From Anaeromyces robustus (taxonomy: Eukaryota > Neocallimastigomycota > Neocallimastigomycetes > Neocallimastigales > Neocallimastigaceae), in NCBI GenBank assembly GCA_002104895.1, contig MCFG01000303.1, forward strand, positions 1-64,000: a DNA stretch of 64,000 nucleotides. Reading direction: 5' to 3'. Shown here piece after piece: positions 26,632 to 45,937 of the stretch (its first letter is position 1; each line of letters begins with the position of its first letter). The notes beneath the pieces were generated by a model. The model saw nothing but the letters and a program-made list of their open reading frames with translations, searched no databases and was not told the DNA's origin. The translations under genes and the position numbers were made by a program.

Positions 26632-29600
26632 ATGATTAATTTTAAACACATAGGGTAATAATAATAATAATAATAATAATAATAATAATAATAATAATAA
26701 TAATAATAATAATAATAATAATAATAATAATAATAATAATAATAATAATAATAGTTAATTAAAAACCTGCTTTAATTATTAAAATTTATTATAAACTATT
26801 TATAATTAGACTACTATTTTTAGTAGGACTATTAATTACATATGGAACCGCGTCTTCAAGTATGTTCTAGAATGGATAAATATATAAAAAATTAAAAAAT
26901 TTTGATTATCATTTTTATTTAATATAGGTTAATTATATAATATTTAGGTGATATTCCTAAAGTATGTCGTTTTAAAACAACTAGCAATTATCAAGTATTA
27001 GAAGTTGAAACAAGTACAGATTTGAATCCTATTGAATGTAAGATATAATTTATAAAAAACTATATATATATATTTTATAATATTAAATATTAATATATTT
27101 CTTAATAGGCAAAACGGGCTATCATTTATTGGATTCAGAATTAAAATCAATAACTGAAGAAAAACAAGGTATACTTTATAAATTAGAAAAAATTAATGAT
27201 GATTTAAAGTGTATTGGTGAAATATATAGAAATCCAATTCCCGGTTATTACATGGTAGCAGGTCAAAAGGATAAATTTATACATTGTGATAATAATAATT
27301 GTAAGTATATAGATACTCCAACAGAGACATGCTCAAATAGTAATATTGGTAAATTAGTTATCTATAATGAAGAGAATGAAGAAGAAATTAATGAACAAAA
27401 CATTGAAGAAAATTTATATGGTCTTTGTCTTGGTGTATTTAAAGAAAATCCAGCAATATTAAAATTTGAAAATAATAACGAAAGTTACCTTGTTAAAAGA
27501 GGTGGTCCAGTATTTAACTTTGATATAACTACTGACTATTTTGTTGTTAAAGCTCAAGAAGATAGAATATTATTTGATGATTCTTTTTCAAGAAAAAGTA
27601 ATATTTAGTTTTTTTTTTTCATTTTATTTGAATTTTATAAATATAAATATAAATATAAATATAAATATAAATATAAATATAAATATAAATATAAATATAA
27701 ATATAAATATAAATATAAATATAAATATAAATATAAATATAAATATAAATATAAATATAAATATAAATATAAATATAAATATAAATATAAATATAAATAT
27801 AAATATAAATATAAATATAAATATAAATATAAATATAAATATAAATATAAATATAAATATAAATATAAATATAAATATAAATATAAATACAAACATAAAT
27901 ATAAATATAAATATAAATATAAATATAAATATAAATATAAATATAAATATAAATCATAAATCATAAATATAAATAATAAATATAAAAATAAAACATAAAC
28001 TTATATACATAAATATAATATTATTTATAATATAATATGTTATGAATTTTTATCTATAGAAAATCAAGTTGCTCTTATTAATGCAAAATTAGTTACTAGA
28101 TTTGAGGAATTCTGTAAAAGTGATAAGAGTTCTGGTAAATATTATACTTGTATGAACGGAAAATGTATTTCCTTTGATAAAATTACTTATGAACGAGATA
28201 CAACTTCTCTTATAAAAGATAATTGTGAATTTACTGTTATAAAGGCAGAAACAGAATATGATGATAATGAATGCTTTATAACAACTGGTAAAACATGTAA
28301 TGAGAATAATTATGGTTATCATTTAGGTACGGATGATGAAGGTTTAAAATATCTTGTTTTTTATAATAGTACTTGTTCTGTTGTTGATAATCCAGCAGTT
28401 GGTTATTATAAAAATGCTATTAACATTTATGAAAATGAAGGTAAAATCTTAGAAGATGGTTACAATTCGATTATTGAATGTAAAAAAATTAATAATGGTG
28501 TTAGTTGTCAATTAATTAATCCTCCCAACACTGAAGGTAATACATGTGATGTCAACAATTCTGGTGAATTAATTGATACTAATTTTAATGTTATATTATG
28601 TCTTGATATTGATATTCCTCAAAGGTTTGCTGATAAAGGAAAAGCATTTGTCATTGGTACTCCTGGTAGTATTTTTGGTATTGAAAATTATTTCCCATTA
28701 AATGTCACAAGAAAATATATGATTTATGATGAGGAATTTTCAGGATCAGGTATTCTTGATAATGGTGGAAGAGTAAACTGTAATGAGAATCATTATTGTG
28801 AAAGTATGCCTTTTAGAATATTTTTTTAAAAAATTTTACAAATACTATTCTTATTATTATTTATTAAACAAACAAAAAAAAATTAATTTTTAATTTATAT
28901 TATAATAAAATATAGAAACCGAATGTAAAATTAAAGTAAAATCTTCATTAGATTCAAATCTTAACATTTTTAATTATATTCCGTCATTAGAAAATTGTAA
29001 TTATTATAAAAATTAATTAATAGTTTTATAATAAAATCATTATATTATTTTAATTAAAAAATAATTTTTTTTTTGTATCAATAATAAATATAAATAAATA
29101 AGGTGATAGAAAAGATAACGGATTTTATTTTAACGATGAAAAAGGAAATACTGTAAAGGATAAAACAAAAAATGGTTATATAATTAAATATGATGCTAAT
29201 AATGCTTCAAATAGACTTGTATTATATTCTAATCAACCAGGATATTACAAAAATCAAGATAAAGTTACTCAACTAGATTATCCATATATAAAATGTAAGC
29301 AAATAAAGGAATGTTTAAATTCTAATCCAACTTGTGATAATTCTAAATTAGTTACAAAATTAGTATGTAATTTATTGGAAAAACCAACTTCTACATGTAT
29401 TACTGGTGAATTAGTAGAAGTTATCAAAGAAGATGAGACAACTAGTATTGAACTTTGTGTTGATGGTACAAATTCAGTTTCTATTCCGTTTTCTAATGAG
29501 AAAAAAATATTTGGATTATATGCTAATTTAGATTTTGATGAATCTATTAACTATTATGCAATTACTGTTGACACGGACAAAATAATAATAGATGATATTA

Positions 29601-44600: not shown

Positions 44601-45937
44601 TAGGTTATATTTGCAGTAAAGTAGGTAATTGTTACATTATTCAACCTGAAGGAATTAAGTATTTTGCTGATTATACCACAATGAATGAAGATGAATTTTA
44701 TGTTATTAAGTATAATGGACTGAAAAAAGATTTAAGAAAACGTTATACTAGAGTATTTGATGATGATAATAATGATGATATTAGTGATGAAAATTTCTAT
44801 ATTCAAAAAGAAGGTAATAAAATGGATTATTCAAAAAATGACAATACCAATGACAGATATGTTTATATAAAGTATGGCAATAATAATTTAAGAAAACGTG
44901 ATGAAGATGAAGAAGAGGATAGTGGATTTGAATATATTACAAAAGAAGGTATATATAAATTAGATGATGGTAGTTATGCTGAATGTGAATATAATAATAA
45001 TGATGATTTGAAATGTCATACTGTTGAAAATGAAGGAGTTACTAAAACTATTGATGATGAATTGATTATATGTAAAAAGAATGATGATAATAAAATTGAA
45101 TGTACTCAAGCTGTACAAGGAGGATATTATATAATTAATGATGAATTATTAGAATGTGAGCCAAATGAAGATGGAGATCAATTAGTTTGTACAAAAATGA
45201 ATAAAGAAGGTTATTTCCTTGCTGAACCAGGTGAAATTCTTTATCAATGTGTAGAAAAAGAAGATGAAAGTGATGAAGATGAATATGACGATGAAGATGA
45301 AAGTGATGAATATGAAGATGAAACTATACCATCTGGAGGAAAAGATGATAATAATGAAGGTGAAGATGATAGTATGGAAACTAGTATGATTGCAAATGAT
45401 GAAGATGATGGTGATGAAGATGATGTTATACCATTAACTGCAGATTCAGGATATGTTATGCCAACTGAAACACCATATGATAATTCACCAATGAAAGTTG
45501 ATTGTTCTGTAGTAGTTTGCTCTGACGAACCAATTATATTTGAAGATGAAGGTAAAATTAAGCAAATGTATGTATGTAAAAATGTTTATGAAGATGATGA
45601 AACAAAGGAAGAAGAAAAGAAATGGATATCTGAAACATGTAGTAGTGGTAATTATATTAAGATTAATGATGGATATTATAAATGTGAAGATGAAAAAGAG
45701 AGTTTAGATGAAGAATATATTGAAAAGCCAAATGAAAGTCATACTACGAGTGTTAATACATATACAGAAGAAAAAACATCTACAAATACTCCTTCATCCA
45801 CTGATGATTCACAATCACAATCACCAACTAATACAGTACCACCAGATAGCAGTGCGCAATCCTTCTTTAATAGATTACCATCTCTTACATTCTATATCAT
45901 ATTGTTTATTATTGCATTATTAATTCAATACAATTAG
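26632..45937 (+). CDS. Giant secreted repeat protein, candidate cellulosome scaffoldin (ScaA-like)
   Basis: Seven exons: 26632-26654, 26810-26859, 26948-27037, 27109-27597, 28060-28803, 28916-28996, 29103-45937; GT-AG junctions and consistent phases give 6103 aa, roughly 0.7 MDa. Exons 1-2 encode a signal peptide ([20 protein letters not shown], then TASS). The body has hundreds of modules of the form G-[YW]-Y-[LIV]-[NS]...[LI]-[IK]-x-C-x(4-6)-C, e.g. [16 protein letters not shown]. About 32.2-37.4 kb adds an FPG-type module; about 39-44.3 kb is organised in ~215-residue supramodules marked by GYYFFN. Then come an acidic linker flanked by two LRKR sites, a Ser/Thr stalk and a hydrophobic C-terminus ([17 protein letters not shown]) that anchors by GPI or as a membrane helix. 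Fungal scaffoldins of gut fungi are described as ~700-kDa secreted, membrane-anchored, repeat-built proteins that bind dockerin-bearing enzymes; this matches by architecture. Ligand binding is inferred, not visible. Alternative: another surface adhesin. Confidence 0.75.
26655..26751. repeat. AAT microsatellite in intron 1 of the giant gene
   Basis: About 32 AAT units begin at the donor site of intron 1 (GTAATAATAATA...), so the splice donor itself is part of the array. Expansion or contraction here would alter intron length but not the exon. Confidence 0.93.
27636..27955. repeat. ATAAAT hexanucleotide array in intron 4 of the giant gene
   Basis: About 53 units of ATAAAT with one variant patch (AATACAAACATAAAT near 27888). 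It is open in every frame on both strands (IN, YIYI, FIFI and YLYL repeats); these are artefacts because the array is flanked by a good donor (27598) and acceptor (28058-28059). Confidence 0.96.

Follow-up and report, generated by a model that had tools for sequence, protein, structure and literature searches.

What does the giant gene at 26632-45937 on the forward strand of an Anaeromyces robustus contig encode? The gene lies in the window analysed here, a stretch of 64,000 nucleotides (positions 1 to 64,000 of contig MCFG01000303.1, assembly GCA_002104895.1), and a preliminary description of the sequence had proposed that its product is a ScaA-like scaffoldin. Proteins of this kind would keep together the enzymes with which the fungus digests plants. 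We find that the gene probably encodes one of two giant scaffoldins of this species, displaying an enzyme-binding frame, and we put the probability of this reading at about 0.88. The gene is already known and there is no surprise in the gene itself; what the analysis adds is an anatomy of the protein and three hypotheses, on the fixed positions of its units, on a glycosylphosphatidylinositol (GPI) anchor and on cutting by a Kex2-type protease.

The protein, its ends and its relatives

A public database protein named 'scaffoldin [Anaeromyces robustus]' matches the spliced protein without a difference over its last 6,095 residues, and three of the giant relatives, from Neocallimastix and Piromyces finnis, also bear the name scaffoldin. 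The gene contains a stop-free open frame of 5,611 codons (29102-45937, plus strand), and splicing from the ATG at 26632 through six GT-AG introns gives 6,103 residues, 695.0 kDa and an isoelectric point of 4.66, with one terminal stop, as in the 6103-residue model previously proposed. The span is made up of six short upstream exons and one large 3' exon:

26632..26654, plus strand: exon 1 of the preliminary model, start codon and first signal-peptide residues (splice check, N-terminus comparison)
26810..26859, plus strand: exon 2, remainder of the signal peptide (splice check)
26948..27037, plus strand: exon 3 (splice check)
27109..27597, plus strand: exon 4 (splice check)
28060..28803, plus strand: exon 5 (splice check)
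28916..28996, plus strand: exon 6 (splice check)
29103..45937, plus strand: exon 7, the 5,611-codon frame, coding for almost all of the ectodomain and for the tail; stop at 45935-45937 (open-frame list, splice check)

Residue numbers below follow the public protein (6,101 residues), unless stated otherwise. Two of the introns, 26655-26809 and 27598-28059, consist mostly of the microsatellites (TAA)n and (ATAAAT)n.

The public and the spliced protein differ only at the start. The public start, MYIIDK, maps to DNA at 24649, about 2 kb upstream of ATG 26632. The five other giants with seemingly complete N-termini begin with MVNFKY..LPLLVGLL or a close variant, and against these five the first 16 residues of the preliminary model give alignment scores of 50, 47, 53, 43 and 27, whereas the first 14 residues of the public model give 11, 12, 16, 16 and -4. 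The other four of the nine giants start differently, are probably truncated and were omitted from the comparison. On these scores the first exon of the preliminary model is better than the public one. The signal peptide proposed there is likewise recognised, by inspection and by the conserved start in five other giants.

The C-terminus was assessed by a simple hydropathy rule, and the features at this end are as follows:

45260..45424, plus strand: acidic linker, rich in Asp and Glu (sequence)
45734..45862, plus strand: stalk rich in Ser, Thr and Pro (sequence)
45863..45934, plus strand: hydrophobic tail reaching the last residues, GPI-signal-like (hydropathy rule)

A hydrophobic stretch that runs to the C-terminus is the typical pattern of a GPI signal, and the tail of the window protein looks GPI-type by this rule, which agrees with the C-terminal anchor of the preliminary description, as a predicted anchor. 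Of 61 proteins collected by similarity, the window protein included, 37 have a hydrophobic end of the kind just described, though at least two (the fragment P0011, and P0054) are doubtful. In a further seven a tail containing a basic residue comes after the hydrophobic stretch (three borderline, one a fragment), and 17 have neither type of tail, many of them probably being truncated models.

With regard to relatives, the first database search used residues 1-3400 of the large exon as query and, from the best 1,153 candidates scored, gave ten proteins including the public copy. One further search gave four proteins, and a search with the small scaffoldin P0015 gave 46 from the best 8,000 candidates scored. 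An organism name or code is attached to 24 of the 60 matches listed, and all 24 are from Neocallimastigomycota. Counting aligned residues only, identity to the window protein is 35.4-42.5% among the nine other giants and highest for P0002; P0003, at 4,344 residues, is short, and several more are partial. The named giants of other genera are colinear with it at 35.4-38.3% identity; they are from Piromyces, Neocallimastix and, under the code Orpsp1, what we take to be Orpinomyces. A search for relatives in other anaerobic fungi had been proposed as a check, and it gave colinear giants in three genera at 35-38% identity. With the identity over 6,095 residues to a protein named scaffoldin, this supports the proposed match to the fungal scaffoldins.

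The same genome (70.17 Mb in 769 contigs examined) holds a second giant scaffoldin, with an open frame of 5,706 codons on the minus strand of another contig (C205:43972-61089, L012/L013). This frame is 99.98% identical to P0002, which the database names merely hypothetical protein, and it is 40% identical to the window protein over an alignment of 5,904 columns. In a quick tree of the ten giants the window protein and P0002 are mutual closest relatives (support of 100 in the Shimodaira-Hasegawa-like approximate likelihood ratio test, SH-aLRT), while the deeper branches are unsure because nine of the ten rows have an unusual letter make-up and two forks are open. Like the window protein, the second giant has units of the kind described below (31 of them), eight FPG domains and a tail of matching type; it differs in having the longer branch (0.99 against 0.70) and 22 entries for dibasic sites against 12.

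Fungal scaffoldins have been described from three species, A. robustus included (PMC6690862, PMC8665504, PMC8262932), with published counts for A. robustus of 26 (PMC8665504) and 32 (PMC12341934), and anaerobic fungi of tortoises carry ScaA homologues (PMC10978972). Compared through database-named scaffoldins and the descriptions in papers, the ScaA family shares with the window protein its species, giant size, repeat richness, signal peptide, C-terminal anchor and database name, and nothing sets the window protein apart.

Units in a probably fixed order

The public copy has 47 GYY-like triplets (mean 4.1 and maximum 11 in 500 shuffles) and 51 C-x4-5-C pairs (mean 17.1 and maximum 31, again in 500 shuffles). 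For the underlying unit of about 30 residues we made a profile from the small scaffoldin P0015 as seed, with a training set of 59 proteins that excludes both A. robustus giants; the consensus is GYYINGGSDKNNNKLIYCDNNSCSEISASN. At E < 0.01 the window protein has 33 such units and the second giant 31; 40 shuffles of the window protein gave a mean of 0.1 and a maximum of 1, and the reversed protein gave 0. Only one of the 33 units, at 5507-5529, is found beyond residue 3,900, and the C-x4-5-C pairs number 4-10 per 500 residues before residue 4,000 and 0-2 after it. Of the 'end-to-end Cys-paired GYY modules' in the preliminary description, the units and Cys pairs stand, being far above chance, but the units are not end to end and the last third of the protein is poor in Cys. 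The parts are:

29240..39271, plus strand: stretch of ~30-residue units 'GYYINGG...NKLIYCDNNSCSEI', 30 of the 33 units, with longer modules between them (unit profile); two other units are in earlier exons and one is near the C-terminus
34160-34351, 35525-35683, 35933-36175, 36407-36610 and 37175-37390, plus strand: five of the eight FPG domains (profile, alignment)
32567-32737, 39032-39148 and 40013-40171, plus strand: the remaining FPG domains (profile)
39539..44701, plus strand: Cys-poor C-terminal third, with GYYFFN-type modules of about 170 residues (module matches, Cys density)

The eight FPG domains of the window protein sit between units, and there are 7-9 of them in each of the ten giants; the FPG profile was built from all 61 collected proteins, window protein included, and this count is not independent of it. 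Counts with a profile for B-modules were dropped, as that profile drifted into matching runs of units.

We took the units of the window protein one by one and scored them against all those of every other giant, leaving out comparisons with no unit at the aligned position. In 112 of the remaining 200 the unit at the aligned position was also the one that matched best, where we estimate that chance would give roughly 7 (there are 22-39 units per giant), and the mean score was 53.6 for units at the same position and 22.9 for those at other positions. The giant, then, is a series of distinct units whose order is preserved from genus to genus. Within the window protein the mean score of unit against unit is 25.6, as against 53.6 within P0015, and BLASTP of the window protein against itself gave no off-diagonal match. 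So the giant appears from these comparisons to be a fixed frame of distinct units rather than a set of interchangeable copies, with P0015 made of copies that are more alike.

Small scaffoldins such as P0015 and P0024 share the ~30-residue unit with the giant, and at least one FPG domain is present in 38 of 47 and a GPI-like tail, by the hydropathy rule, in 32 of 47. They differ in size, at 799-1,915 residues, a range shaped by the length limits of the search, and the units of P0015 are much more alike than those of the giant. P0015 itself (L014, contig C634, minus strand) has a frame of 1,193 residues, in which the matched units number 37 and have the form GYYINSDDNSLIYCDENNKCQEISSPK, and an FPG-like end. 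Another A. robustus protein, P0019, has scaffoldin units joined to a PNS1/choline-transporter-like domain (PF04515), which is either a true fusion or the product of gene models run together.

Proposed scaffold function, rival explanations and possible cleavage

Bacterial scaffoldins of the CipA type are non-catalytic surface scaffolds whose cohesins receive dockerin-bearing enzymes. The window protein is like them in being proposed as a non-catalytic surface scaffold for dockerin enzymes, and unlike them in having no Pfam cohesin match, either in two parts of the large exon (E up to 1) or in two segments (E up to 10). We suggest that the chain would be exported and held at the outer surface by a GPI-type lipid anchor, behind the acidic linker and the Ser/Thr stalk, that about 33 disulfide-pinned GYY units and the longer modules would be displayed as an extended frame, and that enzymes with fungal dockerins would dock onto this frame. 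Such enzymes are plentiful, with at least 150 matches to the fungal dockerin (CBM_10) in the same genome, 150 of the 683 candidates having been scored. Our best guess for the dockerin-binding element is the ~30-residue unit, a candidate because it is found in all 61 collected proteins, giant and small, though the set was assembled by similarity to unit-bearing queries, which weakens this argument.

The components of the fungal cellulosome have been described as having no sequence homology to the bacterial ones, and repeat-rich fungal scaffoldins of more than 500 kDa have been reported to bind recombinant dockerin with a dissociation constant (KD) of 994 nM (PMC8262932). The window protein, at 695 kDa and with 33 units, is a protein of this description. 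In addition, fragments of scaffoldins and dockerins from three species bound in all combinations (PMC6690862), ScaA was detected in the P. finnis cellulosome by mass spectrometry and dockerins were located on rhizoids (PMC8262932), and most of the cellulosomal proteins predicted were detected by proteomics, a statement that pools scaffoldins with dockerin proteins (PMC10978972).

Several points weigh against a scaffoldin function as we describe it. Pfam scans of the large exon in two parts stayed below cut-off (best MoaF_C, E 0.044), as did those of two segments, P0015 and P0013, and no NCBIfam match was above cut-off (best VirB5 for P0013, E 0.19). Against solved structures one segment had no sequence match at E up to 10, and P0015 matched topoisomerase chains alone, unconvincingly (E 0.23-1.2). 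The anchor is a further point, as the metagenomic giants P0004, P0007 and P0008 end in a hydrophobic stretch and a basic tail that is not GPI-like, and a review describes a membrane-spanning anchor (PMC6690862); from these three tails it may be that both kinds of anchor exist. An antibody to a fragment of Piromyces finnis ScaA bound no cellulosome protein on a blot and gave no specific staining of cells (PMC8262932), so that the in vivo role is a proposed one. The role of scaffoldins in vivo was itself called 'not yet cemented', and the fungal cohesin elusive, in 2021 (PMC8262932). A clean anatomy of the giant, showing where the unit occurs and where it does not, which positions stay fixed from genus to genus and how anchoring and cutting may take place, can guide the choice of fragments to express.

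The protein could instead be an adhesin of giant size, or a giant component of the cell wall, that has the repeat unit in common with scaffoldins but binds plant fibre or the fungal wall in place of dockerins, with the name scaffoldin spread by similarity. ScaA was not seen to co-localise with either dockerin or GH48 (PMC8262932). The units are moreover position-specific and divergent in the giant and more alike in P0015, by the mean scores given above, so that bearing a large number of equal sockets may not be what the giants do. However ScaA is present in the P. finnis cellulosome by mass spectrometry and a scaffoldin did bind dockerin (PMC8262932), and the ~30-residue unit is common to giant and small scaffoldins, and we regard the adhesin explanation as quite unlikely. 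The scans of Pfam and NCBIfam, with nothing above cut-off, did not place the protein in an adhesin or any other family by domain match. For the scaffoldin reading there is one correction to be made to the preliminary description, which had the protein as 'the structural core of the fungal cellulosome': membership of the scaffoldin family is upheld, but 'the' is too strong for one of two giants in the genome.

A refinement compatible with the scaffoldin explanation is that the giant is a precursor in which a Kex2-type protease cuts the conserved dibasic sites, with the scaffold then consisting of large pieces from which the anchored stub may separate. In the alignment of the ten giants KR or RR share a position in 8, 7, 6, 6, 6 and 5 of them, with P0003 ending before the last ones. 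In the window protein the sites concerned are:

35744..35749, plus strand: dibasic KR, residues 2705-2706; KR or RR here in 5 of 10 giants
42632..42637, plus strand: dibasic KR, residues 5001-5002; KR or RR here in 6 of 10 giants
44738..44743, plus strand: dibasic KR, residues 5703-5704; KR or RR here in 6 of 10 giants
44894-44899, plus strand: a further KR, residue 5755

Clusters of at least five giants are formed by KR four times from 108 occurrences, and by the reverse order RK not at all from 105. KR ranks first in clustering among 67 hydrophilic dipeptides, and with an equal number of sites placed at random a cluster of five arose in 1 of 300 draws. However the lead of KR is narrow, at 3.70 clusters per 100 against 3.33 for PN, and for clusters with poorly conserved flanks it is only 16th of 249 dipeptides. 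Control patterns also cluster in five or more giants, with three for R[NS] from 178 (this pattern overlaps KR[NS]), seven for KK from 359 and one for R[DE] from 120, though none for RL/RI from 128. An excess of KR pairs was dropped as evidence for processing because KR is no more frequent than RK (108 and 105, each with 86 expected), and we keep only the positional clustering. As a separate observation, RR is in excess in the ten giants P0001-P0010, at 49 against 16 expected, or three times, while KR and RK are slightly above expectation.

The genome has three matches above cut-off to the kexin-type P-domain. After the best of them comes a hydrophobic stretch and then a polar tail, which we read as in Kex2, although two of the three hold an internal stop, perhaps owing to introns. 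The sites raise their own difficulties. Position 4693 recurs within a well-conserved and probably folded stretch, and position 5001 has cysteines 18 residues before and 9 after it, so that a cut there might leave the pieces joined. Of the six positions, the window protein has KR or RR at only three; at 4068 it has KK, and at 1902 and 4693 there is no basic pair. For this reason we lowered our estimate, and we take the evidence for cleavage as suggestive only and hold cleavage itself to be doubtful. If all four linker sites were cut, the predicted pieces would be of about 304, 263, 79, 6 and 39 kDa, and if Kex2 cutting is real it might bear on the ScaA antibody seeing no cellulosome band. The three hypotheses could be combined, with a frame that is fixed across the genera sampled, a lipid anchor by way of the GPI tail and Kex2-type cutting into a few very large pieces, the small scaffoldins supplying the repetitive sockets; as a whole this combination seems to us unlikely.

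Neighbouring genes

The neighbourhood was considered as support for a scaffoldin and rejected, since the Pfam matches of ten scanned neighbouring frames are not cellulosomal. About 34 kb downstream, on contig C228, there is a gene that combines a CotH kinase with a dockerin (CBM_10) domain (L016:4157-5767), which proves nothing given the number of dockerin matches in the genome. Within the window, the frame at 47320-48399 (minus strand) has a leucine-rich repeat of BspA type followed, by eye, by a transglutaminase-like part, with a start that resembles a secretion signal and a bacterial look. On the other side, at 15856-16890 (plus strand), lies an exon matching the beta-propeller of RSE1/DDB1/CPSF1, and the open frames near it, up to about 21,500, are probably parts of one gene.

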